From: Lineus longissimus
Lineage: Eukaryota > Nemertea > Pilidiophora > Heteronemertea > Lineidae
Length of the DNA stretch: 64,000 nt
Reading direction: 5' to 3'
Assembly: GCF_910592395.1 (NCBI RefSeq)
Contig: NC_088317.1
Location: 3,038,001 to 3,102,000, forward strand
Translations under genes and position numbers: made by a program
Part shown: piece after piece, positions 23,001-51,802 of the stretch
Layout of the letters: every line of letters begins with the position of its first letter
Numbering within the stretch: the first letter of the stretch is position 1
Notes under the pieces: model-generated
What the model was told of the DNA's origin: nothing
The model's database searches: none
What the model saw: the letters and a program-made list of their open reading frames with translations, nothing else

Positions 23001-26000
23001 TTTACAAGATGTTCTCTTCATTTCAGTATTTCCCTGTTGATCAGTTATACCCTGGCTGGCAGTGAAGCTTATGCCCAAGTGATAGGAGTTCCGTAAGTTG
23101 ACCTTCTACCATAGCCTTTAACAAGGTATTGATCTAGGTACAGAGGGGACATCCAACAGCTGTATGAAAGAGTTTTCCTTTGAGTAAAAAAGTTTGAGTC
23201 AATGCATCTCCCTTCTCTCTGCGAAATTTGCACATGAGCAATTTATCAAAACGAATTCACTTCCAATATTTTTGTTTTGTCATTGTTTGCCTGAATTGCA
23301 TTCCCCTTTCTTTCCTTTTCAGTTATTTGTATGTGATTCCAGTGTTCTGCGGCCTGTTGACAATGGCCATAGTGTTTGCTCTCAATCTCATTCAACCAGT
23401 CGTCTCCATCCTCACGCTCGCCAAAGGGACACTTTTACTTGGAACAGTAAGTCTTGTTATCTAGCAGACCTCGCAAAAGTTCAGGTTATATCAAACAAAA
23501 CTCACAAAGGTTAAAGTTAAAGTTAAAGTTTAGGGTTTATAGTCTGATATCAACTACGATACAGGTTATCATCCGACTTTACACTTTAACCCCAGTCTGT
23601 CCTGAAACCTTTCAGTAGACCTCAGATGAGCTGCTCAACCAGCGCTACAATCTGAGCATTTCTGACCGGTACCCATTTATACACCTGGGTGCAGAGCGGC
23701 AAGTAAGACAGAGAGACCAGCCTACAGTCTCACGCCGACAGTGGGGATCGAACCCGGGACCTCTTGACCGCTGGTCGAGAGTCCAAGCCACTACACCACA
23801 GCGGCTCCTAAGGTTCATGTGATATGAAGCTGCACTCATATCTAACAACTTGTCATCAATTTCAAGACCAAAACCCACTTGTAGTCTTACAGCTAGCTAT
23901 TTCTAGATGACAACTCGTCTTATAAAATCCTGTCATAATTTGCAGGTGATAGTGACCTTTTATGTCGGTGCTGAAATACACCATGAGATCACCAATGACT
24001 TCATGTACACTGGCGCCCCCTTTCTCATGGGAACGGTGGCCTTGGGCGGCATCATCAACGTGATGCCGTTCCTCTACAGCAAGATAGGCCAGAATCCACA
24101 ACAGGTCCAGAGCTTCCGGTTCGCCATCATCATGGGACTCCTGACGTGTACTGTCCTCAACGTATTATGGTGAGTTGGTTGTTTCATTGACTTTCAAAGT
24201 CAATTTCAGTCTGTCTCACCCAGCTAGGAGGCAACAGGTGACGATCTACCGTCCAGGCACAGGGCGCTGCAGTCAGAAAACACCTTCGGCTTCACAGAAT
24301 AGGGTTGAGAGAATCTGCTGAATGTGTATGTGGAGCTGCGTGGAGCTGGAAACCAGACTCCTGCTCATGGGAACTGAGACTTGATGTTAAGATGTACATG
24401 CATCCAGATTTCGGAGCTCAAATTCAGTGGAAATGACTTGATTAGGACCAAATGCGGTGTCCTTCATACATGTATAAGAGAGGTGTCTGCTGATGGAGGT
24501 CCCACTGCCTGTTAGGTAATCATTAAAACTTGTCTCATTTTATTTTTCAGGTGCTGGGCTGTGCTAGATATCGTACCTCAGTTAGATGCAGTAACGTGTG
24601 TGAAGGGTTCCTTGCCAGGGAACCATAGCAAGATTCTATTTACAAACCCAAGTAAACCTGATATGGTCTGCTTGCAAAATATCTCCTTAGGAAGGTTAGT
24701 TTATCTATAGTGGATACAGTAATCTTCTTGGGTGACGGGCGTTATCATGGATTGTTGCCCCGGGATCGGTGTTCTTGACCAAACACTACTGAGAAAACAA
24801 GGTACTAGTATCAAGTTAGTAGTCTCAATGTTCAGTGTTATCCTATAGTTTAAAGTCACCCCATGTGACAGTACTTCAATCATTGAATTTAACATTTCGT
24901 TTTGCAACAAATCCTTTCAGTCGCTGGGACTCTGGTGAATCTTTTTTCAGGTCTGCTGCTAATGGAGAGATCTCCACTATTCCCTTGACACAGATGATAC
25001 AAAATCTCTACCCAGCCTATACATGGGTCGCATTCCTAGTCGAACTCTTCATCATGGTCAGCATCACCGTATCCTACCTCACAATAGGAGCAGCGATGCA
25101 TCATACATGTAAGTCTTCAGATTTGTCTTCTCAAAGTCACAATCTGCCATTTTCGTCCTCGGGTAAGCAAGTTCTAATTCATGATACTTGCTCTGATGAT
25201 GACCAGTTTTGCAAAATGCCCTCGAGCGGCATCTGGGAAAGTGGTCTCTCAAAATGCAGATGTTCTTTTCGTAATTTGAAGCCCACAGAGAAAAGTGGCC
25301 AAGGCATCTTTCTCATTCAGATTTTGTTGTTTTTTCCCAGTAAAAGGCTTAGTCGAGTCCATGTGGTCTTCCCAGGATCGATTCACAAGTTACATGTCCA
25401 AAATAAAAGTGGCTGCCTCGAGATGTCGGAAGTGTACCACTCAATTGTAAGTCCGGTTAAATCTTTCATTCGTGTTCGGCCTTTTACATTCTGCTGTAAA
25501 GTTTTAACTAACTATTGTTAAAATTGTCACCAAGTCAAACTTCGTTGCATTTTATAAGATCAGTTGATCAAACAAACAGTGCAATACGTGTTTTATTTTC
25601 TTACAGTGCTTTTTTGTTCATTTTTCAGTCTTTGCAGCACATTCCTGTCTCTAGTTGCATTTAGTGTTGTGTTTGCAATAGCTATGTTAAACCCGAAGGT
25701 AATTTACTCAATTCGTTTTACTTAGCATGAATTATAGCTGTCCTTAGTAGCAGGTAATGACCTAACGGGTTGACATGCTTTTGAGTCTTGTGTTTTAGTC
25801 GTTGTAATGAACATTTGATTTTTATGCGAACTTGTTTGGACAGTTAGGTCAGCCCCATGAAGCTTGTCATTAATCTTGAGCAGTATTGAAACTAGTGTCA
25901 TTTCTAAGATATCTAATGTCAATCAGTTTGGTCTCTTGGCTGGTTTAGTAACTAGTGTCATTTCTAAGATATCTAATGTCAATCAGTCTGGTCTCTTGGC

Positions 26001-27033
26001 TGGTTTAGTGACTAGTGTCATTTCTAAGATATCTAATGTCAATCAGTTTGGTCTCTTGGCTGGTTTAGTAACTAGTGTCATTTCTAAGATATCTTATGTC
26101 AATCAGTTTGGTCTCTTGGCTGGTTTAGTAACTAGTGTCATTTCTAAGATATCTAATGTCAATCAGTTTGGTCTCTTGGCTGGTTTAGTAAGTGTGCAGT
26201 ACAGTGCTTGATTTGGACTCGATGTCTAACATGTCTTAGCATTCTTATCATTATGAATATCAAAATTGTTGTTTTCGTTTCAGGGGTTTGTTGACATGTT
26301 AGAGAAAGTAGCATCATCTGTGATAAACATTGAAGCTGGCTTATTCGTCTTCCTTATGCTGCTCAAGGCAAGGAACTCACAAAACAGGTAATAAAAGGTT
26401 GTAATAAAAGATCTTGCCGCCAGCCAGCACAAACCTTAACTTGGGTTAGCTTGGGAGTGGCCACTGTCCCACTAGAAAATTTTGTCAGAAACTTTACTTT
26501 GGGACAGATCTGCTGTAGAATATCAAGAAATAATAATAACTGCTGATGCTTTTCCACGTTTTGCCATGTACATGTATCAGTCCAATATCCTTTTCCAAGC
26601 AAAGTTTTTGTGTAAAAGAGTTTTCCATGGCATGATAGTTTTCTTCCTTTTCAGGAGAGCGCTTATTCCCCTGCCTCTCCCAAACTGGGTCTACTACCTC
26701 CAAGTTCTTCTGCCAATCTACTTCTGTTTTGCTGTCGTCTACGATGTCTTCAACGCAATCGTGGACATCCTCGCTCGTTACGGGATATCAATATGGCCGC
26801 CAGGGGCAGGACATTCAGAAATCATAAACGGGACAGTGTTTCAGAATTATAGCGGAATTACGGACCCAGCGGTCACTCTCCCAACAAACATTCTAAAAAA
26901 TACGACGGGGAGAAATCTTGGGGATTTAGTTTCGACCACAATGACTATGGTAGTTCAAAATACTACAGGAGTTATACAGAATGTTTCCGCAGTTATCAGA
27001 GACGTAAAAATTGAACAAGACGGTAATGGATGA
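20051..27033 (+). CDS. Multi-pass amino acid transporter-like protein (APC/AAAP type), 15 exons, ~583 aa
   Basis: Exons: 20051-20116, 20392-20434, 21062-21103, 21455-21528, 21930-21995, 22333-22417, 22584-22716, 23027-23092, 23323-23446, 23946-24169, 24551-24694, 24951-25108, 25655-25698, 26284-26387, 26655-27033; phases agree throughout (1752 nt). The first helix contains A-T-I-L-G-T-G-I-L-G-L-P, the unwound-helix signature of APC-fold transporters, so sodium- or proton-coupled amino acid transport is the best guess; substrate unknown. About 10-11 hydrophobic segments are visible, with an acidic loop (D-L-D-D-D-S-F) after TM2. The C-terminal tail after the last TM has five sequons (NGT, NYS, NTT, NTT, NVS), implying a lumenal or extracellular tail. 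Oddities: the exon at 25655 uses a TAG acceptor behind two AGs that would give a stop. An ATG at 20029 with a better context reads another frame that cannot join exon 2. Confidence 0.82.
20276..20299. repeat. Perfect short palindrome in transporter intron 1
   Basis: CATGGAGGTAT and its exact complement are separated by TT: 11-bp arms with a 2-nt loop. No flanking repeat was found, so this may be chance or a remnant of a small inverted-repeat element. Confidence 0.6.
22735..22832 (+). repeat. tRNA-like SINE head (fragment)
   Basis: GAGCCAGAGTGGTCTGGTGA resembles an RNA polymerase III A box, and GAGGTCTCCAGTTCAATCTC a B box, at tRNA-like spacing; a variable-arm-like stem lies between. It sits in a transporter intron. 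It is too degenerate and extended to call a functional tRNA. Confidence 0.5.
23513..23809 (-). mobile_element. tRNA-derived SINE with TTTAAC-type tail
   Basis: Read on the minus strand, a tRNA-like head has an A box (TGGTGTAGTGGCTTGGA) and a B box (GGTTCGATCCC) about 45 bp apart. It is followed by a conserved-looking body with CACCCAGGTGTATAAATGGG and ends in a short tandem tail of ACTTTA units at 23513-23532. About 297 bp, inserted in a transporter intron between exons 23323-23446 and 23946-24169. Confidence 0.85.
25888..26187. repeat. 60-bp minisatellite, five copies
   Basis: Five nearly identical 60-bp units containing CTAGTGTCATTTCTAAGATA and CTTGGCTGGTTTA, in the transporter intron between 25698 and 26284. 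Because the unit is 20 codons and contains no stop in one frame, it creates a spurious open frame of about 115 codons. Confidence 0.95.
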
Positions 27034-27956: not shown

Positions 27957-28570
27957 GTCACATCCTGTCATTTACTCCAGTATTGCTAGGATGTGACTAT
28001 GTCCATGGAATCCCAAGGATGCCAAACTGTCCCCATTTGAAATGCTCAGATCTTGTCACTGTCACATCCTGACATTTACTCCAGTATTGCTAGGATGTGA
28101 CTATGTCCATGGAATCCCAAGGATGCCAAACTGTCCCCATTTGAAATGCTCAGATCTTGTCTCCGTCTCTGTCCTGACATTGACTCCACTTTGTCCATGG
28201 AATCCTGGCCACAAAACTTTCTCTGTAATATATCATCTCATAATTCACGATTTTTCCACCAATGTGGTCCCTGTCTGGTCGAGACAATGTTACGAGATGG
28301 CTTGTGAGGCATTGAAGGCAGGTCTCTTTAATATCTGCCCTCGTTTTCCAATGTGTACTATAGCCAAGGATAGATTACTGAAAATGTCACATCAACACAT
28401 TCACTCCATGACCAGGATGTGGTTTTGTCCATGGAACACGTAGGACACCAACCTCCCCTCTGTCACATCCACACATTCACTCCATAGTCGGGATGTGGCT
28501 TTGCCCATGGAACACGAGGACACAAAACTCTCCTCTTAAACTTCATCTCAAAAATGACCATATTCAATGC
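27957..28570. repeat. Tandem duplication (104 bp) plus decayed relatives
   Basis: A block starting GTCACATCCTG at 27957 repeats almost exactly at 28061 (period 104 bp). Weaker copies with GTCCATGGAA and CACATC(C/A)ACACATTCACTC continue to about 28550. It lies between the 3' end of the transporter gene and the convergent PAN-domain gene; no coding signal. Confidence 0.85.
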
Positions 28571-28773: not shown

Positions 28774-31700
28774 TTACGCAACTAGTAAATCAAATTCTGA
28801 AGGAGATAGCGCTTGGTTGGGCCAAGGCTGGCGTTTGTCTCCAACGCCGGCTGAACAACTGGAATTTGGTCTCAAAAGTCCTGCCAGGAGCAGAAAAATC
28901 TCAAGGTAACATACTAGGATGTGACTGTTACGGCTGAATGTCTGAAGACCTCTGTTTGCAGCACCATGAGGATCTAGCCAAAGCTTTATTGACTTCCGAC
29001 GCCCCGATGCGAAGTATGGCGGGCGTCCATATTGCACGTACGCACCAAACCACCGATTTTCACTGACGACACTCACTGGAAAGACAAGGCGCTCGGCGCG
29101 AAAAGAATGTCTCTGCGGCTGACGCTTTGGGATAGACCTCCTCCCCCTGTACTCACATCGTATGCTCTGGCACCAACGCCCTTCCTGCTCGGTGCGTACG
29201 TACTTTATGGACGCCCCTCGTCCCGTTACACCCGGACTCGATTGTCCTTCACTACCAAGACGTTGTGCTACCGAAGTCGTATCAGACAATGTCCATAGAT
29301 ACACTCTGGTGGCTAGTCTTATACTTACTCCCGTCTTCCAGTTTGTGTGCTTCTATCACTAAAAAAGAAAAGAGATAGGGTGAAAAATGTATGGTGTATG
29401 AGGCCAACCATGATACAAGACAATCATATTTGAATAAGTATTACTCCATGAGGAGCGTTTCGGAGACAGGACAACCAAACGGTCATATATAACCATCTCG
29501 CAGAGACCTTTGCTGGCCAACTAGCTTGCTGAGAAATATTGGGAACAAACACTCACTGATGACAATATTGTCATCTTCGAGACGGGCTTGGGAGCACCGC
29601 GAGACCGGTTGTGAAACTGCCCCGGGGAACAACGCCAGCCAATGACAGTCGCAAAGACAAGTTCTCCAACGGATCCACGACCGTGCCGCCGAGAGGACAA
29701 ACCGTTCCGTGAGGACAATGTCACATCATGACTGTACAGACAGCAAACTGAAGACAGTTTGGGAGCCAAGACACGTACAATGCCACACTAAATTTGCGAG
29801 CGGACATTTCTTAGGTAATACTGCATAGCCAGGATAACGTCACATTCTATCCCAAGACAGAAATGTGGTGACTAGTGTTTTAGATATGCGAGATACGTAC
29901 CTTGACACAATTCCCCGTTCACTATCGAACCTTTAGGACATTTTCCCTCAATCATCGTCAGATGCCCGTTGATAACCTCAAATCTCCGCACCTCTGGAAA
30001 TACACCCATAGAAGTAGGAATAAATGTAGTTGTGACATGACAGTAAGTACGAGACGGTGCTCATGAGGTTGGTTTCTCTCAACAATTTGATGCCGAGTGT
30101 CTGGAAGTCAAGATGTGTCTCCTCTCACCTGACGTCTCTAACAAGAGGCACATCTTATCCGAATTCGAGGACAGACACTACCATGATGGAGACACCAAAT
30201 GGGTACATTTTCCGTCCCGAAATTGCAATTATCTGCGTCACCAGCTGGGTCGATAGAGTGATTGCTAACTATTGGTCGTGAGGAGTTAGACCACGACCGC
30301 TTTGCCGTACCGGCTCTGGTACCTCTCTACCGTCTTCGCTGCATTTCTTTACAAGACTTTACAAACCTTTAGCCTGAACTTTGATCTCTTTGTGGACTGT
30401 CTTCTTATTGATCAGTACTAAAAGAAGGAAATAGAGAGAATGAAATTCTCTACAAGGTGTGTGTGTTTGGGCATTCTTTTAGTCCGGGAATCTGTGTGAG
30501 GCAAACCCGCTATCAGCCAATATGATATGTCGTCTTCAGCGCATCTCGCCTTGCACTTGTTTCGAGAACTCCTCAAGCTCTCAATAAGGAAGGTCTTATC
30601 GTGATACTATACAAATTTCGAAGATTGTCAAGAATGACACTGCTGTTGTGTAGCACACTGACCTTCTAAGTTATACTCTTTAAAGACTGAAACGAAATAA
30701 ACTGATTTGGTGACACTGGCCCTTGCAATTTGTAAAAACTCAGCACAACAGAGACTCACGGAGACAGTGTTAGTCGATTTAAAGTCCTCGATAAAATGCA
30801 GATAGAAATTTCTGCTGATTTTATCGTAACTCTGACTCTACTTAGATCAAGCGTCCCCTTGTCTCGGGTTGTGATGTCTTTAGATTAAGACGTCTATTGT
30901 CTCAGGTTGTGTCTTCTCTAGATTGAGACGTCTCTTTGTCTCAGGTGGTGACTTCTCCGTGCTAGACTTTTGATCTGTCTTCGCCTGATAATTTTGATAC
31001 AGATAGCGACAGTCATGGCTATCGGATTACACAACTAACAAGTTTCGAAACCAGGGTATCTGATTGCTATGCATCAAGTGGCCTCACTATTCAAGAGGAC
31101 AACGGCTTACCAACTCAATTAACAAATGATTTCGCCGGATAACTTACAGAAATCCCTCAACATCTCCACGTCCTCAACTGTTGCCGAAAAGGAAACAAAA
31201 TGGGGTTCACTCATGATGTCTTTGAACGAAACATGCTAATTGGATCAATCGGAGACCTTGATCGAAAAGCCCACCCCTCAAATGTGAGCTCATTTCGTTA
31301 GCTTCGGCGGACTATCGGAGACCCGACCATGAATGCAGGTGAATAAAGTCAAGAACAATCTGGTGTCCCAGACAGTTGGTTACACTACTTTTAGTGTCAG
31401 TGTCGCCTACCTACAACTGTTTCATTAAGGTCGTATCATTTTTGTTCTGTCCCTGTCTTTCACTGTCTGACACATCCACGTACAAACATGTCCTAAGACA
31501 CGTACATCAACATGTGGTCGGCGACCTGACGACACTTTATCCTCAGAGACAGAAAATCTAGTGACGTGCCATGCCGAAACCAGACTTGGACTGTCTGGTT
31601 CTGGCCCCAGCCGTGGACGTGAAAGTGTCAAAACCCGAGGACCTGCCACTATAAAAAGGCACGTGCGATAATTTCAATGTCCCGAAAGTTGTATCTAATT

Positions 31701-34700
31701 CGTTTCATTCGGACACACCAAAGATGGCGTCTAGGGCATCCAAAGTTGAAGACAAGTCGCAAAAGCAGACGACACTTACGGCGACACCAATCATTCTTCA
31801 AGTCAATTGTCCCATCCGGGCATTTCTTGTCAAACTTCTTGATGGCGTTGTCCTTGATCTGAATATTGGCTAAGGAAGAAAACCAATCATTAGAACGATT
31901 CTATGAAAGCTAAAAAAGGAACCGCGCTTGCCGTACAATTGTGTCATTTTCGCATTCGAACTGAGACAGATCATTGTCCGTTACGCAGTCAGAGTACACT
32001 GTAAATCTTATAGATAGGGATTGTTTCCCCGGGACTGGGTGATCGACGACCAATCTAAAGGACAACCCCTTAATTTTGAAACTGTCTAGGCTACTATATA
32101 TGTTAAATCCTAACTCGATACTAGGAATTTGACGTGTACCGAACCTTGCTATCGGCACAATCGGGCTCTGCGCAGTGTGCACCGTAGAATGGGTGTCGTT
32201 CTATCGTGAAAGAATACCGAAACCGCTGGAGGACAAGTGATAAATAGATAGGTATACATACGCGTTCCTCTTTTCCCAGTAATTCGCTGAACTGAAATGT
32301 TGATGAAGTAAAATACATCGTATATGCTGTACTACCCGCCATGACATCTCATTGCTCCCTCCAGGTGAAATCATCAAGACCCTCACGTTGTGGACTCCAC
32401 TACGCCGTATCGAACTTCGTTTTAACAGCTTACAAGTATGTGAGGGAGGCCATACCATTGAAATGCTAAAGATTGGCTCTTCTTTGGACAACTCGTCGTA
32501 GGTTGTGCCCAAGGACTTTTTGTCACGACAAAGGCACAACGGGGAAGAGGATGTTTTCCAGGGGGTCATGTTAGACTACGACACTACCGTCTTGTACCTA
32601 CGCGCTTTTTCAAGTTTTCCCCGACTTGTGACTGAAATAGAATGTCTTGCTGAATTATCAGTGGGTACACGTACGTTATTTTCAGGATGCATTTATGAGG
32701 GTTTGTATTACAAAACCTTATTCTATAGCCGTCGACAATGCTTTTATTTTTGTGCATTGGTTATCAAATACAGGGAAGAACTGAGAAATAAAACCAGATG
32801 CAACAGGCCTTAGCGGTTATGTCTCTAATGGATTACGATGCGCGTCATGACACCTTCGGGATGATCACTGGCGTATGGAGGAGTAACTTCACACTACGTA
32901 CTGGTACACCATGTGTCGTAAATGTGTCTCTTTTCGCTGCCTTCCAGACATCGTCCATTCACTTCACTCACTCTGGTACCATCAATCTTGATACGACCTT
33001 AATCAAGAAAACTAAAGTAAAGCTGGGGAGGGGTCGCTTGGGGCAAAACTAGGGAAGCATCGATTCGAGGACTGCGCTGCCACACGATTTCCTAACTTGC
33101 AATGTTGCCAAAAAATAGTTGGACAAAGAATTACAAAAGTCCGTAACCTAAGTAAACTTCCTGGACTCCCGGTATTAAAAATCTCGATCAGACTGCATCC
33201 AGCTTCATAGTTCATCGCAATACCCTTTAAAATGTTCTTACCTTTTGTGATACCTGCAAAGAAAGTACTTGGTTAAAAGAGGTGATGCAGATTAGCACAC
33301 GATCGCTTCGACTTTTTTGGTTCGTGTGTCTTCATGACAAATTGTTGTCAAAAGTTACGGGGAGATGTCACGTCCTACAAAACCAACTTCATATGTCCGA
33401 CTTGTGTTTTCCAACGACTCATCATCATTCCAGCCACCACGGTTTCTGGTGTCTGACACAATTTCTTCTCTTCATCATTTTAATATCCAGTTGGTTGTTT
33501 TGTCTGATGTCCACTAAAGCACAATCGTCCGTCTGCCTGCGGACAACGCTTTTTTAGTTCCTTCATTTGCCATTGGAAGGCGACACTGAATATAAAGCGG
33601 TGGCTTGGCGATGCATCATCCCACACAGTGTGCCACGAGACAGACTCAGATAAATCAATGATGAAGTGGTGTACAGTAGCGGTGATAATAATATACGTTA
33701 TTGAAGATCGCTTCGGTAACTAAGCAACGGTTTAAATATTTATCTCGTTGGCCATATTGATATGGCTAAGCGTGTTAAATTAGCAGCTGGTCATTAGCGA
33801 ATGTTATTCAATGTTATTCTAAGATAACAATCCAGGGTCCCTTTAATTGTTGTATTCATATCATCGAATAAGCATACGGGATCGTATTGCGGAAAGAAAT
33901 GTTTGGTCTGACATTCCCTTTTCCTAAGGCCGCTTCATACTTTCCCCGTTCCCGCATCGCCAACAGGGCGGGGTATTTTTTTATCAAGATGACAGAACTC
34001 CCAATACAGGCAGATAATTGCAGAATCACAGCGACGTTCCGTTCATTCGCCATTTTGTCGACGCATGCGTTTGACAAACGCTTCTAAATATGCAACAGTG
34101 CAGCATAAACGTGGTTTTGCCGCGTGCGTTGACAAAACGGATTTTTAACCGTGCAAACGTGCCGGACCTTAGCTGCGACGTTCAGTTTGGTTGCTTGGTG
34201 AAATCAATTCCATTTTTGTTGTAACAACGTTTTGGTATGATCAATTGTCCTTACACACACACGCACATTTACTTAGTATTATTGAACGATACTTACTCAT
34301 TTCAACTGAAAGTAGAGGAGAAAAAAGGATTAGGAATCGCGCTGCTATCAAGAGCCGAGTGCTTGTGACCCGGCATAGACTAGTCCAGTAAATATAAGGA
34401 GGAACCTTGAATAAATTGAGAACTGAAACGTTAAGAATCGTATTTGTTATTGTTCAAAGAAATTTGAAGTTTTTCTCATTACTTTGAAACGCAATCAGTA
34501 TTATTTTCAACTATATTGTCGTTCTTTGGTATAAACAATAAAACATGCCAAATTTCATCACGTCTTTATAGTAAAACAATAACACATCAACAATATGCAC
34601 GAACAAACGAGACCTTGAATCATATAAGGCATGCGACTACATCATGTAGGCCTAATTCGGTCAATAACCTACTTTGTATTGTAAATGGGATGAGAAATCG

Positions 34701-37700
34701 GAATTTATAGCATGTGATGTATGTAATTGATCATGAGGGCACAGCTCTATCTGATTCTGGATATCTACGATCGATCTTTGCTCTCATATACAGCTTTCGA
34801 TGCCCGGGAACGGTCTAGAAACATCATCAGCTGGCGCATTTCCGATTCAGTCTGGCCACGTGAAAAATATGCTTATACAACAGGGACGTTTATCAGTCGA
34901 AAGGTCGAAAAATGTCAGCCGAGTTTGGAGGGGTTGTCCTTCACCAAGAGAGGCAATGAATCATCCTCCCAGCACTGGCTTGTATGATAAAAGTGATGAT
35001 ACCGAAGACAGTGGGGCAAGAATTCCTATCAGTGTGCCCGCATGAACAGTGTTCAAGTCCGAGCAGTGTTCCCCACGTGACCAGTGTTCTCACGTGATCA
35101 GTGTTCCTCAAGGAAGAAATTCGCGTTCTCACCTTTCTTTTCGTATTTGTGTTTCACTGGAAGAAGACAGAAATTGAACTTTAATAGAAAAATGAATAGA
35201 AGAAACTGTTGTGTTGTTATATAACAAGAATACACTTCCGAGAGATCATGAGAGACTACGTCGGTGTGCATATTGAATGCACTGCATCAACAGTATAAAG
35301 CAGTTGGGCTGTGCATGTAATCGACCTCATTTCAACTGAATAAGACTGTTATGTCGAGGACTATATATATCTACATGTACGAGCAAAAAAACCAATACTT
35401 CAAAAGTAATGGGTTTTTGCCGACAGATCACCGACATGTTGTTGGTAATACATGCAGTGGAACCTCCCTTAATGAGACACTTCTCTATCACCGATAGCAC
35501 CTGTCAGTCTAGGGGTTTCCTTAAAGGGGGGCTATAGGCAGGAGCGGTGGGGTTAAATTGGCCATCTTCGGGTGACTCATATGCGCAGTAAGGGCAATGG
35601 GTCATGTTAGATTCAGCTCTTCATGTATACGTTGTACAAGCATGAATAGTCTTGACGTGATGTGAGATGGGAGAGACCCCTATTGCCGACATTGTGTAAC
35701 TTTATCTTGCCTACCCAGCAGCTGCCTATAGTGTCCCTTTAAGTGAGATTTTACTGCAATGTAATATTTGCGCTGCTTTCTTACTTTCCTTGTCCAGTTC
35801 AGGCACGTTGACAACTGCAATTAAAGGATGAGTTGGACATCATATCGACATATGGTACTTTAATGTACCATGTACATGTGTGTTTAAAACAACAGCAAAG
35901 ACAATAGCTCTTCGAAATCAGCATGAGGGAAGTATAAACAGAATGACAAATGAACTGCCTCAGTCGGGAGTTTACCATGATCATTTTTATCAACAACGCG
36001 ACAATGTTCTAAAATGAATGCTCTTCTGGTCGGAAAGGTTGAAGGAAAAACTATAAGGTTCAATATCTGTTGGTTTTCCATTGAGAAATGGCCTCCAGCA
36101 GGACTGTACGTTACTTCTCGACAAAAAAGCTTTTTCTGCAATGTCCTTGAGTGCCATCGTATGTTGAAACCTTCCTTTTACCTAGGGATCGCCTCAAAAG
36201 TGATTGATGCCTTGAGAGATGAAAAAGTTAACGAAAAGAATGGCATCAGGATGTCAGAAGTTTGAACACCCCGAAACGTTGGCAGAGAAATGGCTATAAC
36301 CCCTCCCCCAGATGAACATATCATTCATCATCTCTCATCGGGCATCAAGCTATAATTTCGAAATGATCCCTTACCACTGCACCAATCATTCTCCCTCTCC
36401 ACCGTTCCTGCGGGACAGCTTTCGCCAACTTTCTTAACTTTGTTGTCTTCTGTGCGAAACGTCATCGGACTAGCTGCAAGGTCAAGGAGAAAGGACATTA
36501 GAGAGGTTGCGCAACGTCCCCCCCCCTCTCCCCCAACTTGGATGAACAGCATGAACGCAAATATAACGTCATAACTGCAACAACATCTTACCTTTGTGTT
36601 TAAAGCAAAACTGCAAGTAACAGACTGACTTTTCCTCCCACTTGTCTGTCCAACACATACTATTAGAAACTATCTTACAATGTGCATGCATGACATCACC
36701 GTACGAATACAAGGCAACTTCCGCCGCATCCAAAATGGAGGCCGATGACCCAGTGACCTTGATCCCAACCATGTCCGACTCCACATTTGTTTTCTTCAAC
36801 CAAACATATGTGACGCATGACGACATGTGATTCTCTGACGTCATACATTTCCCGCTGTATAGTTTCAACTTTTCACCAGCCTCATCACCCCATTTGTACA
36901 ACTCCTTCAGGGCCTTTTCACCTACTAAAGTCTCGGCCAGCTGTATCCCCCCGATGATATTATAGTGCTTTCCCCTCGTCTCAATCATTTCAAATCTGAG
37001 GTAGACGTAAAGGTTTTCTATTGTGTGCCCTAGTCCGACTTCAAACTCATCTTTTTCCTCGGCACTGTAATATTGTTTTGTTTTCTTGAGGACGGTAGTC
37101 TTCAGCAGGTGATTGGAGTTGCCCGTGTATAAATAGCGACTGATCCCAGTGATGTTGAGTCCACCTACTACGGAGGACTTCTTCTTCGCCGAAACGTCCT
37201 TTTCCTGTTTATGCCGATCCTCCTTCCTCTTGACATACATCTCAAACTGTCTCGTGTTTTCTCCTCTGCACTCATCAGTTTTCATGATGCAAGCGGAAGT
37301 CACGTGACCCGCGGAACCCACATGACCAATAGTCCGGGAAAACAAGACGCCATAACACTCGTTTGTCTTGTCGCATGCTTGTTGACATTCGATGATGGAG
37401 AGGTCGTTGAGTGTCTCCAGGTTGTGTCCAAGACATATTCCGTCAACGTGAAAGTACCGTCGAGTGTTTTTCTCTGCCACCACATGTACGCCTGGAATGA
37501 GGTGAAGATTTGACAAGCGTGTCACAAGCATACGGTGACGTACCCCGGGTGACATACAGGAAGAACAGTCCAATGGCCACATCCTTTGTTATTAAATTCG
37601 GACAAGTACTGACATAACTGCATGAAAAAATACTAAGATCAATGGACTCGGTCTTCTTCCACAGTATACCACTGCACGCGTGTACACATACTGCTGCAGT

Positions 37701-37897
37701 GCATATTAGGGGCGAATAACCAATAAGAATCTACTGAATTACAGAAAAACGGTATGAACCTTACTGATGGCGATGTTGTTCTTATTTCATGACCTGTCAA
37801 AGAAAAACAAAGATGAAGAAATATCCATACCGATTCCAATAAAAACAATCGCAATTGCTCTACGGAGGACAGAAACGGCGGCCATGTTTGGTGTCAT
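28774..37897 (-). CDS. Secreted PAN/apple-domain protein with a run of phase 1-1 micro-exons
   Basis: Exon 1 (37831-37897) encodes a signal peptide (hydrophobic A-I-A-I-V-F-I-G-I) after an in-frame upstream stop. Exon 2 (36592-37491, 900 nt) has a PAN/apple-type Cys pattern (I-C-L-G-H-N, E-C-Q-Q-A-C-D-K-T-N-E-C-Y-G, C-I-M-K-T-D-E-C), then about 180 residues of unrecognised, probably beta-rich sequence. Then come small exons: 36375-36473, 35976-36008, 35785-35814, 35133-35156, 34297-34305, 33242-33253, 32262-32291, 31780-31869, 31148-31177, 30663-30686, 30367-30417, 29901-29993, 29557-29574, 29329-29358. Each starts and ends in phase 1. Those of 99, 90 and 93 nt encode related modules with C-P-x-G-(T/S). 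PAN domains bind protein or carbohydrate, so an extracellular role is likely. The 9- and 18-nt exons and the terminal exon (tentatively 28774-29075) are the weakest calls. Transcripts could include any subset. Confidence 0.68.
29901..36473 (-). repeat. Three diverged protein modules (Cys-Pro module) within the PAN-domain gene
   Basis: Exons 36375-36473, 31780-31869 and 29901-29993 encode about 30-33 residues each with a shared plan: a polar start, D/N-N-x-(V/I)-K-K, then (S/K)-C-P-x-G-(T/S)-(V/I), then (N/G)-(D/E)-(W/L)-C near the end. The first two share N-D-W-C exactly; the third ends G-E-L-C. Sizes (99, 90, 93 nt) and phase 1-1 borders agree, as expected from exon duplication. Confidence 0.75.
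35455..35528. mobile_element. MITE family 2, short internally deleted copy
   Basis: CAGTGGAACCTCCCTTAA followed by CACTTCTCTATCA and AGCACCTGTCAGTCTAGGGG. The middle of the full-length element is missing. It lies in an intron of the PAN-domain gene. Confidence 0.7.
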
Positions 37898-39297: not shown

Positions 39298-41747
39298 TCA
39301 TGTAACCAGATCCTTTGCCTCTTCCTCCTGTTCCAACACAATCTCATCTACCACCACGGGAGTTTTTCTACACTTGACTGAGATGAACAGAACCATCACA
39401 AGACCTGCTGACGCCACGCACGTCAGACCGCCGAATACGAAGGACAAGGTATACGACTTGGTTACATCGAAGACAAAACCTGTAGAAAGAGAACGAAAAA
39501 CGGATTAGGAATGTATCAAATGGTATAGGCCTACAGTATATAGAGCATCTTTCCAAAGCAATTGATTAGCGCTGATCATTTGAGCTCACTGGCGAACCAG
39601 AAAGGGCACTGACCCAACAAGGTAAGGTTGGGGCCAACAGCAAACCTGCCAACCTGGCAGAGCATGATCAGTCCTCCAAGAAGTTCGTGCTCAAAGTAAA
39701 ATAATTCGGGAGTGTACGGTGACTAAATCTATGAAGTGTTTGTTTTGGTTCTGGAGCAGTTTTGGTTATAAATTCCATGATTCCATCTGCCTCCCAGGCA
39801 CAACCTCTTCAGCTTGTTGCTTCATTTTCCCCTGCCATGTACAGCATCGTGGATAATTTTACTCTACCTCCAATTGGTGGTCCAATGAGAGCGCCAATAC
39901 CATCACCCACCATCGCGTAGCCGAACGCGCTGGTCAGTCGACGTAATCCGAACAGTTCGAGAATTATCACAGGTAGTAATCCTAACTGAACACCAAAAGA
40001 AAACCCGTAAAGTGCACAGTAACACACCAAGGCGGCATAGGAGGTGTCTATTGAGACCAGAAACGAGGGTACACCTGAAAAAAATATTGCTGTGGCGAAG
40101 ATCAACAGACGATTACAGCACAGATGTTTTGAGAGAAATGCTATGGTAAGTTTCCCAAGTACCCCTCCGATCCCATCGACCGTGGCCAACAGAGCGGATT
40201 CTTCCTTCCCAAATCCTTCGACTATAGCGTGGTCCACGACCAGGGTGACCCAAGTCACACCCCCAATATTCCATAAAAAGTCAACCAAAATGAACACCAG
40301 GAGTCGCCAGTCTTTCAGCAACGAGATCTCACAGATTTTATCCTCTTGCTCTGCTCCCGCTGTGATGAATCGCTTCGGAAGCGGCCGGAGGAGCGCACCC
40401 ATCACACAAATGTTCAATGCAATACCCCCCATGATTATGAGACAGCCTCTCCACCCGAGAACATTGATGAGATATGTCATAAGAGACGGGATCACAATGC
40501 CGGCCACACCAACACCTGTGACTGCCAGCCCGTTCGCAAGACCCTTCTTCTTGTCGAAGTAAAATCCTACCATGACCACACCGGGAACGTAGGCCATGGC
40601 CATTCCTGTACCTGCAAATAGAAAAAGAAAAAGGAGCTGACCGAAATATATAAGCGTGCCACGAGCCCAACAGAAATACACGTAGATAACGCCAAGGTTA
40701 GTGACCAAAAATATGTTTTAAACAACCAGACCCCGAGTATACATTTAGTACTTTGGAGATGAAATGGAGGGAAAGTAATCAGGGACATCATGCTGATTTC
40801 AGTTCAAGGGATTTTGTCATAAGTTCGTTGTCGAGGCTGAAGTGGAACAGTACCTGCTAGAACACCATACGTCAGGTTGAGCAAGTAGATATTGTTGACG
40901 AAGGCACTGGAGAATACGCCGACAGCTGTGAAGACTCCTCCCGCTATACACGTCGCACGGTGGCCAAACTTATTACATAAGACACTCGCCAGGGGTCCTA
41001 AAGAATATAATACATAATACACATCAAAAACATATTACTCCAAAGTAATGTGTTTTTGATAACATTCATATGAAAAAGTGGTCGAAATGTTTTCAAATCA
41101 CTGGGTGTTCATTGTTTGTCTCACCAATACTGCGAGGGTAGAGCGACAATCTAGGCCGATATCGAGGCAGCAGCAAAGGTTTTGGCCGTAATGACTGCCC
41201 CACCCAGGCCAAGTGGTGTTTGGTGAGTCAACCAATACCGATAGTGCGGCATCAACGTCTAATCTAAACAGCTCAAATAAAACATCGAAAAGTGATTTTG
41301 ACTGCCTCAAAATTTTGTACCAACCACAAGCGGTAATGGTTATCGCTGCCGCAAGAACGAGGCACAGTGCTCCATACACTGTGAACAGAGTTACATTGTA
41401 ACCACGATGTTTTGGGATAACCTACCAAGACCGAGGGCAAGGCCAGTTGCAATCGAACCAGGCCAGGCAGTATCCGCGTTGCTGCTCTCGAACGCCTCCA
41501 ACAGTTCGACGTACAGTACGCCATATACCATCGGTAATGAGATCAGAAACTGGATCCAAAATGAGGCGAAGACGATCACCCATGCGTAGCCCCCGTCGAG
41601 GGCCTCCACATCAGTATGACCTTCATCTTTGATCTTGACCTCCGTTGCCACCGCACCGCCATTTTTAGACTCTAAGGGATCTGTTTCCTTGCTGATATAT
41701 ATTTCTGCCTTTCCATTGCTATGGTGCGCAGAATTGGAAGAAGTCAT
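39298..41747 (-). CDS. Monocarboxylate transporter-like protein (SLC16 family), 463 aa
   Basis: Four exons, 41426-41747, 40854-40997, 39868-40611 and 39298-39479, with all internal junctions in phase 1 (1392 nt with TGA), a complete gene. After a ~50-residue polar N-terminus comes the SLC16 TM1 motif D-G-G-Y-A-W-V. Exon 3 starts before the second family motif Y-F-D-K-K-K-G-L-A-N-G-L-A, and twelve hydrophobic segments are expected across exons 1-4. The C-terminal tail is short and acidic (E-Q-E-E-E-A-K). SLC16 proteins are plasma-membrane major-facilitator transporters, some proton-coupled for lactate and pyruvate, others for thyroid hormones, aromatic amino acids or unknown substrates, so the substrate is not assigned. 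Tandem paralogue of the gene at 45364-49229, same strand and same intron positions. Confidence 0.9.
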
Positions 41748-42915
41748 CTGAAGTATCAATGGCAGGAAACACACGAATTATATCTGTAGAATGTCCTCCA
41801 TGGCAATAAGTACATCTTCAGTTCAACTTAAATAGGGCAATTAGGACAACATTAGGCATGCGGGGAGTTAAGGTCATGAGGTTCTAGATGAGGGTTACCA
41901 CGCTTCCCGTATGTACCAATGTCGTGTCTTTAGTAAGGATAGTGCATGAGAAGGTTGGTTTAGTTATTCCATGACTGGGCTTTTGCAGGGAAAGCTTAGC
42001 TGAACCTTAGAGTAAACAAATATTATTGGGGAAAGACTAGCTTCAAAAACAACTTGAAGATGGAGATCCTTTATTCTTGTATATTCCAAATTCTTCCAAA
42101 TACAGCATTTATATAATGGATAGTTACAGTCACAAATACAGATTGGCGAGTCCAAATATGTGTGTTGCCAGTCTGGACCGTGAACACTATAACAACACAA
42201 AATCACCAAGGAGACATAATACAATCAAACACGTTTCTGATTGAAAGACTTATACTAATTACACTTGCCAATCAAGCGTATCCAACTTGTCTGAACACAC
42301 TTGAGTAATATAACAATGACCTTATAGTGAAAGAGTTAAACCCTCAGTAACCATTGTTTTCAGAATTAGCTAACTAGTATGTGTTTTGACATGTTCCATT
42401 TGTCATATTTTAATAATAAATAAATAAAAAATATTCACCTTAACATTGATAACTTGTAAATTTATACTTTTGATGAAAAGTACACCATAAAAGACCCAAG
42501 GGTGATTACTCTATTAGGCTGAACAGGGGCTTTTTGACGACCTGCACAGTGTTGTCACGTAGACAAGAATTAGCACCAATTTGTCAGCCGGGACACGGAT
42601 GTGCATGTATACCCAGATTAGTTGATTTATAAGTTCAGGCTGTTCCCGGTAATTATCGATAGTGTGCATAAAAAATGGTAACATTAGACAGGTGGGAAAC
42701 ACGATCTGATATACATACATAAACCAAGTACCAAAAACACTCTACACATACATGTATATGTGAATATCGGGTGTATGTAGTGGTTGCCTTGTTTTTGTTG
42801 CCAAATCAGTCTGCACCCGATGTAGAAGTAGAAAATGTCCTCCTGGAAAAAAAGTTCCGGGCCCCAGGCGTATTGTATTCTGACGGATGATTGTATAGCC
42901 TATAATAGTATAGTA

Positions 42916-45363: not shown

Positions 45364-48300
45364 TCAACTTGAACTCTCTACTGTACCTTCAATATCTGGT
45401 CTTCCTCTCATTTCGCCTCCTGTTTTGTGTTGTAGAAACTGATCCACCACAAGGATGAAGAATATAACAGCGGCTAGGAGGGACACCGATGCTCCGAACA
45501 GGAGAGCTGGGAAATACATTTTGGAATAGTCGAACAACACCCCTGGAGTTAAAGACAATGAGACTATTTCATGTCCTTATATTGTATAACAAACATCAGG
45601 GCCCGGTTGTTCAAAACATCTTTCGTCACTAACGCTGGCATCAACTTTACTTTGCGTTATCTCCTCCAGTGAATCGAACAGTCTCAACGCCAAGTCAGCG
45701 TTGGTGACGAAACTTATTTTGAACAACTGGGTCCAGGTAGCAACGAGGTAACGGTGAAACCCATATCATGGTCATACTAGTTTTGGCAACACTTCAGTCG
45801 ACCTTCCGGAAATTCCCGAAGATGACACGGCGAAGATGACGTCTTGATCAAATAGGTTACTAAGTCACCTTTAGAACAAAATTCAATTGACCACCTTTTT
45901 GCACGAACACCTTCACCTGATGATAATGCTAATTTGAAAAAGCCACCCACCTGTTACAAACGGCCCAATAAAACCTCCAATACCATCCGCAAACATTACA
46001 TATCCATAAGCACTGGTAAGCTTCTCCAAGGTGAACAGCTCCGCAGTCACAACGGCAAGAAGGCCAAGTTGGAATCCGAATCCAAGACCGTACACGAGAC
46101 AATGGACAGCAAGGACCGAGTACAAGTCACTCACCGTGAACAACGCCATTGGAATAACGGTAATCAAGGTTGCTACAGCTAGACACAAAGGTCGGTTGCA
46201 GTTCCTGGGATTTGTGGCGAATGCCATGACAATTCGTCCAACGAAGCCTCCGATGCCGGTTATAGAAAGCAAAAGGACCGATTTGTCATCACTTTTTCCC
46301 GTTAAGTTCGCATGATCTGCGGCACTGGTAAGAAATACTAAACTTCCAATGTTCCATAAAATTTCAGAGAGACAAAATAAACAGAATCTCCAATCGGAGA
46401 GCAACGCACCATTCAAAATACTTGTCTTTCCTCTTCTTCTAAAGAGCTTACAGTAACGTGTCGGGCGAAGGAGCAACCCGAGGACACAACAGTTCAACAT
46501 GACTCCACTGAGTACAATCATTGCACCTCTCCATGTGTAGGACACAATTAGCATTTCTATCAAGAGCGGGTAGACCAACGCCCCGGCGGCCACGCCTGCG
46601 CAGGCAATGCCGTTTGCCATGGTCCTTCTTTTGTCGAAATAGTACCCAATGATGACCACTGCGGGAATGTAAGACATACTGACTCCGAGTCCTGGAAAAG
46701 GAACACTGGAGTTATATATCTGCTAAAAGAGACATTGCCTGTTTATCATTTACGACATAAAGCAAATACTAGTATTGGCCCTCAAATGTAGCGATGATTG
46801 AAATGGATAGGCCTCCGTCGACGCACCCAGCAAGGGAGGTATAAGTATTGGGTCTCGATCAAATGCTGAAGTGGTGTTCACGTCTAGTTCAGGATGGTTG
46901 ATGTTAGCAACCTTTGTACTCTGCACTACTTTAGAATTCATCAAACACTGAGAAGAGGTGTTCGTTCATCTGACCGACCATATCGGTCATGTCTGGTCAT
47001 AAAAGTTTCTACAGATAAGAGCAGGTCACAAATTATTTTCACAGTTCGAGCAAATAGATGTACTAGCTGATAGAAACCAGCCATTACTGTACATAGCACT
47101 CATTGATTACCGTTTGCTGATATTTATCTGAACTGTGAAATTAGGTGTAGACGGTTTACGCAGACTTATATCAACAAGACAAATGAATAACACTTAGTCC
47201 ATTGTTGATAAGACTAAAGATACATAGTTGTCATTGGTGGACTTTATATTCATAACGTTTGACCAATGTATACCGTAGTTGAGGTGTAGAATTATATATC
47301 TAGCGATGATTAGAAAATTAGACGATTAGACGAAGAGAACTGCCTCAAGAAAAAACTCATTCACAGAAGAGACTTACGAGAATCTACGTGGAGTTGATGA
47401 CCGGGCTCCAGGTCACCTTCTCCGTACTCGATTGGTCGTAATGAAGAACAGAGAGGAAATACTGGCCATCTGACACCAAACTGACCACAAAGCTTTGGGG
47501 CGCTGTGGGCCCTGAAACTCTCTAGAACAGCCGCATTCGTTACCAAAAACGGACTGGCTGTCTAGCTAGTGTGCATCTCAAAAATTCCTAACGTAAAAGA
47601 ATGATGAAAAGAAGATATGAAAATGTAGCGACATGACAAGTCTTTTGACATCCAGCTCAGCTGAAACAAAAGTGTTGGGCAAAGAAATAAACATTCTTCA
47701 CATAGTGAAGCCCTTTTATGATTAACCTTACCTGTGAGGACACCAAAGCTTCCACATAGCATATAAACATTTGGCGCAAACGAACTGACGAAGAGACCAA
47801 GAGCCGCCACCAAGCCTCCGATGATGCAAGTCAGTCTGTACCCAACGTAGTTACACAAAATGCTTGAAATAGGCCCTGGAATGGAATTAGTCGAAGGTGA
47901 ACACGTTTAAAACCAGAAGAAGTAATTTCCCAATTGCAATGCATGAACATATAAATGTACATGTATATTAGCGGCGACAGATTTTGAGTTCGCTAATTCC
48001 TCGAGCTACAAGGAAAGCCAAATACGAGTGTCACGTCAATGACCTCGTGCAGATCTTAAGATACTCTTTCAATTCTAACTGACTTATACGTTTAAAAACA
48101 TTATTCAAGAAGCATCTTTGACATTCCCTGTCTCAAGATGGTTGAAGCTAAGCGTTCCGAGTTTCTCACCTGCCCCAAGTCCGAATCCTGCGGCAATGGA
48201 ACCAATCCACGCGGTTTTCGTATTAGAATCCTCAAAGTAGCTAAGAAGCTCCAAATAGAGCACCCCGAACGATAATGGCAACGCGATAGTAATGCCCTGT

Positions 48301-49229
48301 AGAAGGAACGAAGCGGCAAGAACAACCCAGGCATATCCACCATCTGGAGCAGTGAACTTCGGAACCTCATCTGGGTAGTTGGGAAACAGTTTGTCAACTA
48401 GCTTCATTTGCTCTTCTTTCCGATTTAAGGCTCTTATGGCATCATCAGGTGTGAAATCATACGACCCGCTTTCGGATGTTGAGTCGTGGTCACCATATGC
48501 CCCGTCTGTCTGATCCAAGGTTCTTGGATGAGGACAAGACATTGGAACATCTACCTCTACTCCAGTTGGTGTCCCATTCCCAACACTGGTTTTTCCAGGC
48601 CCATGCTTCTGTTTACCGGCAAACACATTATCCCTTGAAACAGACAGGTGTGTCGCATCCTTGTCTGTTGGTGCAGGACAAAGTAACAATCTTGGTTCGT
48701 CCATGGAATCGCGCCAGTTATGTTCGGTTACATTCCGCTTGATATCTACCTCACCTGTACAGGAGTTCGGCAGGTGGGCAGGTTCACCGACAATATCATT
48801 TGGAACCCCATGATAACCTGGCCTATTGATAACTCTTTGTCCATATTCTGGTAAACTGAATGTGACCGAATTCCCTGGCTTTTGGTTCACTGATTGCGGG
48901 CTTCGATTCGTTTCTCCTGCCGAATTTGATACTAAGCTCTCATGTGTATTTCCCTTTTCAGTGTGTGATAGGGGATTAGGCTGTGGGACATCTGGTGGTT
49001 TTTGCTTGAGAGATGCCACAGGGGTATCTGGATGGCTCATGGACAGTCCTGACTTCTCAAGTTGAGGGTCGGTTGAATGACCAACGTGAGCGCTGCGATC
49101 CGGCGACGAAGTAGGTAATGAGGTGACGGACCCGTGATCCGGATCACCTATAGTCTCCAAAAGTTGTTGAAGACCCTCCATGGCCTTATCTATATCCGCA
49201 CTCGGAGAACATGGGGCTTTAGTGTTCAT
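45364..49229 (-). CDS. Monocarboxylate transporter-like protein (SLC16 family) with long N-terminus, 707 aa
   Basis: Four exons, 48170-49229, 47732-47875, 45951-46691 and 45364-45542, all junctions in phase 1 (2124 nt with TGA). The 144-nt second exon and ~740-nt third exon match the neighbouring paralogue exactly in position. The first ~295 residues are hydrophilic and low in complexity (Ser/Pro/Asp/His-rich), probably cytoplasmic. TM1 then starts with the SLC16 motif D-G-G-Y-A-W-V. Exon 3 carries Y-Y-F-D-K-R-R-T-M-A-N-G, the second family motif. The remaining membrane segments follow the 12-TM major facilitator plan with a large loop after TM6 (R-R-R-G-K). The substrate is unknown. The long N-terminus separates it from the 463-aa paralogue and could be regulatory. 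Confidence 0.9.
45599..45734. mobile_element. MITE family 3 (GGGCCCGGTTGTTCAAAA)
   Basis: About 136 bp with inverted ends GGCCCGGTTGTTCAAAACAT and TTTTGAACAACTGGGTCC. A second inverted pair lies inside: TTTCGTCACTAACGCTGGCA against GTCAGCGTTGGTGACGAAAC. It lies in the last intron of the 707-aa SLC16-like gene. Confidence 0.85.
47441..47510. repeat. Dispersed repeat fragment shared with 14.34 kb
   Basis: ATGAAGAACAGAGAGGAAAT, then ACTGGCCA and CTGACCACAAAG, also found with small differences at 14338-14405. It lies between exons 2 and 3 of the SLC16-like gene. Confidence 0.5.
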
Positions 49230-51802
49230 CTCACTTCGATTCGACCACTGTGCCGCGTGCTACTATGTCTCCCCGATCAATCACAGCTTCTGTAACAGCT
49301 GCACGATGATCAGTGTTATTTCCATACCGGTAGAATGCGTTGGCAGATCACACATTCTGTCATCAACTTATCATTCTGTAAGGAAAACCAAACAGACATG
49401 ACAGACTAAACTAAAATACCATAAAAGGGTTGGTTGGTTGGCCGACTCAAGTAATGGCAGTAGCTGTCGCACTGGCTATACCATCTACCGGCGTTGCGCG
49501 TCTACCAAGCTTTCGATGAAAGGAGGAGACTTTAGGATTGACGTACACCGCCGGTAAGTCGGCATGGGTACATGTACTTCTTGCCGAAGCGAGACTTGAC
49601 CTGCAGGGGGAAATTCTCCGTCGAACCGTTTGTCGAATGGCTGTCAAGCGTGCACACTGCTCGCCACATGACAGGGCTCGACCAGAGTCGAAACTTGAAA
49701 AACTCTGGCCCCACCATCAAAAGGTTTAGTGCGTGTGTATGTGTACGGGTAGTTTGGTTTATTGTATTCTAAAGGCCTCAAGAGCTTTCGAGCCGCCAAC
49801 ACACAGACCCAGCCGATATTTTCCCGAGAGAATGTAAGCCTACTTCAATTGTATGACAGAACTTACCCCCAAACCTCCATAATAATGTTTTTAGCGATAC
49901 TTCTGCGTTGCGAGTCGCCGGCCATCTGTACTCGTGCCTCTAGTACAACACCTGCTAAGCATATATCACGATTTATACACCAGTAAACGATGTGCGCATC
50001 CATGCGCAACGTTAGATTGTGCCAAATGGAGAGCACTTTGTGCACTGAGCTCGCAGATGGGGACGATCGGTGATATCAACGACACTTCAGATTATTCTTT
50101 ATCTGCCTGGGCCAAAGTTCGTTCCCTATTACCTAATCGTCCCGATCCTTTAATGTAGAGTCGGACCAAAGTGTAACTTATATCAAATTGACCCAGTTGC
50201 TGGCAGATGATAGCCTCGGTCAGCATAAACTGAACCGCCCACTAGCTTACTTTGGCCTATTCTGCACATGTTTTGACCAAGGGTGCACCAGCACTACATA
50301 TGGGGAACCTTGGACGTATGATTCGCGGATAACACCAAGCCACGCGCACCAAGGCTGTATTCTCAACCATCAGAGTTACTCGGTCCGTTAATCCCTCCCC
50401 TCACGGTGTAACGGAGTCCGGGTCGGCGGAATGGATCCAAGGCTTGAGGGTCAAGATGGTAATAGGCTACTGCTACTGTTATCCTTTGAGGCCTTTGGAA
50501 CGGTATACGGTAAAAAAAGGTACAGGAAAAATAGGTACACAAAATGGCATTAATAGGTTAAAAAAAGAAGGCTACTAATTCACGTATTATTTCGCGGACT
50601 TCGTTTATTCTGTTTAACCCGTATTTAATCCATAACACGAATATTTACATCTATATATTTACAGTCTCGATCTCATACATGTTTACACATCACATCAATG
50701 ATGCAAATATGCTTGAAACTTGAGCACACCGATCGTCGTCATTTCCGAATCGAGTCCTAGACACACCCATGATAACGTCTTCGAGGCGGACATTTAATAC
50801 TTCGTACTTCGTCGTTCGCACATGTAGCTCTTCGTATGGTTGGCGAAACCTGGCTAATATCAACCATCTACTAAAGGCGTTATATCAAGAGATTATTTCG
50901 TCATGATTACTCATCCAGATAGTGAGTCGGTTACTGTGGGTACATCGTAAACTTCTGATAATTTCGTGCGCCTTTTTAACCTTTTGCCGGAGACACGCTG
51001 TGAAAGGGGCGTGACAATTATCGGCTGAATCAGCACGTTTCGTTGCACCAGGACCAATCTCCCAACGAGAGGACTAGCTTCCATTTGCTGGCCGGAAGTG
51101 ACCAACCAGAAGAGGCCAAATGAACGTTGGTAAACAGAGCTAGTGTCACAACACTAAGCAACGGTTACCAATCTCGAGGCTAGGAGATTGAACCAGGACG
51201 CTTTGCCAACGGTTTGCCGCGAAAGTTACAAACAAAAACTTGCAAGCGAGAAATGTAAAATACACAATAAAAGCACCCTTTTTTATTGAAACATTAAATG
51301 CAGGCCTTGAACATCACCTCCTGTTTTTTTCAAAGGTTTGAGATCACCGAGTCATACCTCATCGATTGGTAGGGCCTCTACTGGACCTGGCAGGGCATGA
51401 AAGGATGAGAGTCTCAAAATAATGCCGGATTAGTTACAGAGCTCCTGTGCCAGAGGCACGATATGCATAAATCCCGAAGTGCCACGTGCATGCAAACAGT
51501 TGGTGGAATGTTTGACAATGTGTTTCTGAAGGAGCCAAATGTTGGCCCTTTTTGTAAAGATTTAGGAACCCTCACGATTAAGCATGATTCAGCATGATCT
51601 TGAGCATAATCTTGAGACACTCTTACTTTAATGTTAGACGAAACAGTTAAACATCTGTAGGAATAAATTTCATCCCTGTATCAAAGCTCAGTCCAGAAAC
51701 ACCTAACAGTAAAAGCACAGGAATTGACGCAACACTTAGAAATATTTGATGTAGCATCACACTGATGAAGTAATAAATAAGCATTCTATTCAGAGCTCTG
51801 TC
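49230..51802. other. 2.6 kb between the SLC16-like and BCOR-like genes
   Basis: Holds the element shared with 43.47 kb (49520-49565), shortly upstream of the SLC16-like start. TTTATT at 51282-51287 could be the minus-strand poly(A) signal of the BCOR-like gene. No exon-like stretch was found. Confidence 0.5.
49520..49565. promoter_or_regulatory. Element shared with 43473-43524, upstream of the second SLC16-like gene
   Basis: About 45 bp nearly identical to the block at 43473, here 290 bp upstream of the minus-strand start codon at 49229. The minus-strand text is open in one frame in both copies and would encode a shared P-K-V-S-S-F, so a translated 5' exon cannot be excluded. Confidence 0.45.

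Follow-up and report, generated by a model that had tools for sequence, protein, structure and literature searches.

In the papers cited here, genes with an abundance of tiny 3n exons figure as effector genes of flatworm parasites and of aphids. According to the description in PMC10526429, the exons of the S. mansoni micro-exon genes (MEGs) measure 3-81 bp, mostly 15 bp, and the proteins of that set reach at most 189 aa. The aphid bicycle genes, as described in PMC9168663, code for putative secreted effectors, and their numerous small internal exons begin at the second codon position. Moreover, class 1-1 modules, that is, symmetrical 3n modules with internal phase-1 introns, are presented in PMC8001218 as the rule in animal extracellular proteins. 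A gene in which the cassettes can still be read as copies would show how such genes can originate in ordinary module duplication, and whether variable splicing follows would become testable.

The window analyzed here, the whole 64-kb stretch of DNA, holds a candidate gene on the minus strand (28774-37897), with a signal-peptide exon, a 900-nt exon, a series of small exons, and a probable terminal exon (Table 1). The spliced model has 16 exons and 1692 nt and forms a single open frame of 563 aa, the exons being open and all internal boundaries lying in phase 1. The locus probably is a true orphan gene, and its architecture is a variant of a known one. The first-pass annotation had pointed to at least eleven confident small exons of 12-99 nt, and eleven good ones were located, all in phase 1, the strand being minus. 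It had also listed two weaker exons of 9 and 18 nt; the former is present but weak, whereas the latter is absent from our candidate list at its thresholds. The second weak exon of the present model is one of 30 nt, adopted in place of a 33-nt version of the exon at 32631, which has no usable donor (-8.3).

The window is probably animal because it contains MFS transporters, zinc fingers, a BCOR-type PUFD match slightly below the cut-off, and spliced genes. The two MFS genes are neighbors (39809-41777 and 45913-49259, both minus), each with one open frame and an MFS_1 match (E=1.1e-24 and 2.1e-23), and they are monocarboxylate-transporter-like by eye. The PUFD match (27.3 vs a 29.5-bit cut-off) belongs to an open frame at 51803-53302 minus. 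Also, five near-identical 60-nt tandem copies at 25890-26191 plus are open as a 20-aa repeat (SVISKISNVNQFGLLAGLVT). Neither Rfam matches nor a tRNA were found in the window.

Table 1. Features of the candidate gene and of its introns, with exons in 5' to 3' order. Lengths in brackets mark the two weak small internal exons; the other eleven between exon 2 and the terminal exon are the good ones. E values of modules are from profiles of the other modules (leave-one-out).
Feature	Position	Strand	Length (nt)	Peptide or sequence	Remarks
Exon 1	37831..37897	-	67	MTPNMAAVSVLRRAIAIVFIGIG...	ATG and signal-peptide-like stretch; phase-1 end at GTATGG
Exon 2	36592..37491	-	900		Open; PAN-like stretch inside roughly the first 100 aa, then a region of about 190 aa without assignment
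Module exon M1	36375..36473	-	99	...SCPAGTVERENDWCS	Splice-score choice; E=3.1e-5
Linker exon after M1	35785..35814	-	30	VVNVPELDKE	Splice-score choice; similarity to 31177-31148 ranks third of 12 candidates
First 24-nt exon	35133..35156	-	24	VKHKYEKK	Splice-score choice; of 8 candidates, the most similar to the second 24-nt exon
9-nt exon	34297..34305	-	(9)	VEM	Good acceptor, donor GTAAGT; splice-only choice favors a 39-nt version
12-nt exon	33242..33253	-	12	GITK	Highest splice-site sum in the set
Module exon M2	32902..32997	-	96	...RCLEGSEKRHIYDTWCT	Seen by eye in the candidate list, then tested
Linker exon after M2	32602..32631	-	(30)	VTSRGKLEKA	Weak splice sites; retained because it follows a module and resembles two other 30-nt exons
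Module exon M3	31780..31869	-	90	...KCPDGTIDLKNDWCR	Splice-score choice; E=6.1e-7
Linker exon after M3	31148..31177	-	30	VEDVEMLRDF	Weak by splice sites alone
Second 24-nt exon	30663..30686	-	24	VFKEYNLE	Splice-score choice; of 10 candidates, the most similar to the first 24-nt exon
51-nt exon	30367..30417	-	51	VLINKKTVHKEIKVQAK	Strong acceptor; weak donor GTTTGT (score 0.2)
Module exon M4	29901..29993	-	93	...KCPKGSIVNGELCQ	E=0.27, top segment outside the training set
Linker exon after M4	29329..29358	-	30	VIEAHKLEDG	Splice-score choice; best of 8 candidates against the first and third 30-nt exons
Probable terminal exon	28774..28880	-	107	SSCSAGVGDKRQPWP	Ends with TAA at 28774
Transposon-like element	29021..29216	.			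26-nt inverted ends; intron before the terminal exon
Second element	35520..35743	.			22-nt inverted ends; intron between the first 30-nt and 24-nt exons

Splice sites were scored with general animal splice tables. The main chance test considered AG..GT pairs that are 9-120 nt long and do not overlap, on the minus strand of 36590-28900, with an acceptor of at least 0.5, a donor of at least 1, and a sum of at least 5. Choice by splice score yields 13 pairs, 10 of which have a 3n length, and 9 of these 10 are open in phase 1. In contrast, 100 first-order shuffles give means of 6.87 pairs, 2.16 3n, and 0.81 open phase-1, with a maximum of three open, and none of them reaches nine. On the plus strand, the same criteria give eight pairs, four of them 3n and three open in phase 1. 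Seven of the nine open pairs correspond exactly to proposed exons, whereas 34305-34267 is a longer form of the 9-nt exon and 29075-29046 falls inside a transposon-like element. With stricter thresholds, only two exons passed, a number equalled by the best among 22 stretches taken elsewhere in the window; with looser ones, seven phase-1 candidates vs four in phase 0 and five in phase 2 represent a modest excess.

Single exons were evaluated in 300 shuffles, counting only exons of the same length. An exon as good as the proposed one appears in none of the shuffles for the 12-nt exon (33253-33242), in three for the 9-nt exon (34305-34297), and in four for the 51-nt exon (30417-30367), and the count rises to 31 and 57 for the 30-nt exons at 31177-31148 and 32631-32602, respectively. 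An extra 9-nt phase-1 candidate with a strong donor (30137-30129 minus, ETS) lies in the intron before M4, outside the model; one as good is found in 1 of the 300 shuffles.

In exon 1, hydropathy peaks at 2.91 (11 residues, residues 14-24), and the product would be secreted. The likeness of exon 2 to PAN/apple proteins consists of a weak match within its first 100 aa (PAN_1, E=0.0025; PAN_4, E=0.0032), below the curated cut-offs of both PF00024 and PF14295 (18.1 bits vs 21.4 and 17.9 vs 27, respectively). A signal-peptide exon followed by a 900-nt PAN exon had been proposed before; both exons are supported as candidates, but the PAN match does not reach the Pfam cut-offs. Aphid bicycle genes are not known to carry a PAN exon. 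The sole Pfam match in the remainder of exon 2 is to NF-YA, at a chance-level E=0.1.

A protein search with exon 2 retrieved one partial relative, P0001 (196 aa, from a metagenome contig of 5169 bases), with 71% identity over 60% of the query, which lends support to this exon. Up to KHKG, 23 of the last 30 residues are identical between both sequences, whereas none of the six comparable read-through residues beyond it is, and this supports the 3' boundary of exon 2. A profile built from the two sequences gave no additional relatives. Moreover, a 521-aa version of the spliced model, lacking M2 and the linker after it, has no homologue among 7994 scored candidates, in a database that may hold few animal proteins, and no relative appears in viral or genome contigs, an animal gene not being expected in either. 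Searches of the PDB by sequence gave nothing for exon 2 plus flanking sequence (E <= 1) or for the two-sequence profile (E <= 10). The predicted structures of exon 2 and P0001 are unusable (mean pLDDT of 31.2 and 32.8). A discoidin/fucolectin-like fold was considered for the 190-aa region and rejected: P0001 has no Pfam match up to E=10, and exon 2 has only that to NF-YA besides PAN.

The four exons of 90-99 nt appear to be copies of a single module of 30-33 aa, each with two cysteines separated by 10-13 residues. M1 and M3 are a clear repeat, with a local score of 85 that none of 5000 shuffles equals. Similarity between the other pairs is weaker and points to the same origin with less force (uncorrected p of 0.0024 for M1-M2, 0.0028 for M3-M4, 0.0060 for M2-M4, 0.0116 for M2-M3, and 0.029 for M1-M4). 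Leave-one-out profiles recover M1 and M3, and M4 comes first among segments outside the training set (Table 1), whereas M2 is not among the best eight matches listed for the profile built without it. However, the summed similarity of M2 to M1, M3, and M4 is 96, the best values being 82 in 300 shuffles and 75 in 22 other stretches of the window (candidates of 75-110 nt). The motif CPxG[ST][IV]..C, which was derived from M1, M3, and M4, does not occur again in the six frames of the window; the tryptophan is missing from M4 and the motif proline from M2. The terminal exon resembles M1 and M3 (uncorrected p of 0.0066 and 0.039) but not M2 (0.26) or M4 (0.83), and perhaps it is a degenerate fifth module. 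The Pfam CC domain was discarded as the identity of the module, with matches below the cut-off (E=0.019 and 0.013).

The order of the short exons follows that of the modules. In all four cases a 30-nt exon comes directly after the module, and a 24-nt exon is next after the first and third 30-nt exons. The mutual similarity of the four 30-nt peptides is above that of shuffles (p=0.0017, a post hoc value since one member was picked after seeing the others); for the trio without this member p is 0.03, and one pair scores below zero. When the 31 open 30-nt candidates of the region are ordered by mean likeness to the set, the four linkers rank 1, 2, 2, and 6, the one after M4 being first and the one after M3 sixth. 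Interval by interval, the exon after M3 is third of 6 candidates in similarity to 35814-35785 (see Table 1 for those after M1 and M4). Each 24-nt exon is, among its candidates, the one that best matches the other, yet the permutation p is 0.35. We read this linker pattern as the probable trace of an old duplication of an exon cassette. The copies would not be recent because the longest direct repeat listed between one intron or exon of the gene and another has 21 nt and 76% identity.

The 3' end of the gene is uncertain because one AATAAA, at 28990, precedes the terminal exon, whereas others, at 28332 (ATTAAA) and 27673, come after it. The possibility that the open frame 28774-29352 forms one long last exon was rejected, its 29021-29216 part being the inverted-repeat element. 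This element carries a good splice acceptor at 29075 and could supply an exon.

Taking these data together, the explanation that we favor, and consider fairly likely, is a secreted animal protein with a PAN-like head and a tail grown by duplication of phase-1 exon cassettes. Our confidence is held down because the boundary evidence from P0001 comprises six residues and the ranking of the linkers is mixed. The order along the protein would be signal peptide, PAN-like head, the region of about 190 aa without assignment, and a lysine- and glutamate-rich tail (K 15% and E 12% over 164 aa, excluding M2, its linker, and the terminal exon). This tail would contain four, perhaps five, small two-cysteine modules joined by short, mostly charged linkers, and the two cysteines of each module would close a disulphide hairpin. 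The cassette, formed by one module exon of 90-99 nt and a 30-nt linker exon, twice also with a 24-nt exon, would have been duplicated in tandem through phase-1 introns, and growth of the tail by this route is probable from the sequence. The protein may work as a binding head carried by a beaded stalk. The length of this stalk and its linkers would change over evolution, and alternative inclusion of 3n exons may change them as well. The duplications themselves would make the tail vary in evolution; its variation by splicing is possible.

Two readings of splicing can be accommodated inside this cassette-duplication explanation. The first, to which we give about an even chance, is a constitutive gene where all or nearly all the small exons are always included, their phase-1 3n form mirrors the duplication of extracellular modules, and one or few isoforms are produced. 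This agrees with the modules being diverged copies and with the rule described in PMC8001218, because of which phase-1 3n exons do not by themselves imply variable splicing. The skipping of exons bears on this reading in both directions. None of the 13 small internal exons introduces a stop when skipped singly, which does not favor constitutive inclusion; however, when all the combinations of skips are considered, 768 of 8192 contain a stop, so free skipping is incompletely protected. Two junctions account for the stops, those that join the 30-nt exon at 31177-31148, which ends in T, to M4 or to the terminal exon. The earlier proposal that every small exon can be skipped without a change of frame agrees with the single skips, and some combinations of skips make a stop. 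Also against a constitutive gene, exons of 9-30 nt are often regulated.

The second reading, possible but unlikely, is a combinatorial locus similar to micro-exon genes, in which inclusion and skipping of the small exons would generate many variants of the tail. The small exons are symmetric, and on paper 7424 distinct stop-free proteins of 357-563 aa could be formed. Also, the longest introns (827 and 1043 nt, flanking the 9-nt exon, vs 118-732 nt elsewhere) fall within the first half of the series of small exons. The working definition of these genes, as given in PMC7653826, asks for at least seven exons, and the model has 16, or 13 without the three least certain; a further criterion of that definition takes in 9 of the 16 exons, or 7 of the 13. 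However, the longest run of micro-exons is four with the 9-nt exon and three without it, and the locus qualifies under the definition as described there only with this exon. The MEG logic that the first-pass annotation attributed to the locus thus depends on the 9-nt exon, and the 900-nt and 90-99-nt exons are unlike those of the S. mansoni MEGs described in PMC10526429. A micro-exon gene arisen independently of flatworms and aphids is a still more doubtful proposal; its PAN-headed secreted protein would have a cysteine-module tail assembled combinatorially from the duplicated cassettes (module, 30-nt linker, and optional 24-nt exon), with the two stop-making junctions forbidding certain skips. 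Finally, a decaying or partly false tail, where the weaker micro-exons are due to chance or dead but exons 1 and 2 are real, as are some modules, would be in line with the weak splice sites of several exons, the tryptophan and the motif proline missing from M4 and M2, respectively, and the transposon-like elements in two introns, but it is improbable given that the 16 exons make one open frame, though selected as open, and that the open phase-1 exons exceed those of the shuffles.

A literature search on micro-exons with PAN or symmetric exons found no match, and we do not claim absence from print. With the flatworm MEGs, as described in PMC10526429 and PMC7653826, the locus shares a putative signal peptide, a large number of small 3n exons, introns that are longer in the middle, and a predicted secreted product. 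In a comparison by description only, it differs from them in the 900-nt exon, the module exons of 90-99 nt, and the repeated cysteine module. For example, in relation to the schistosome exon sizes given in PMC10526429, the 900-nt exon and the four of 90-99 nt exceed the range and no exon has 15 nt; 3n exons below 70 nt account for 240 of the 1692 coding nt, and the model protein of 563 aa is well above the maximum of that set. The aphid bicycle genes described in PMC9168663 have the same exon phase and small exon size, the two features compared, although they are an aphid family. On the other hand, exon 2 and all 13 small internal exons have phase-1 introns on both sides, as in the class 1-1 modules of PMC8001218; as a difference from such proteins, a module of this locus has no more than 30-33 aa, and the linkers between modules form exons of their own, of 9-51 nt. 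We therefore file the locus as a variant of a known architecture and as a member of neither the schistosome MEGs nor the aphid bicycle genes.
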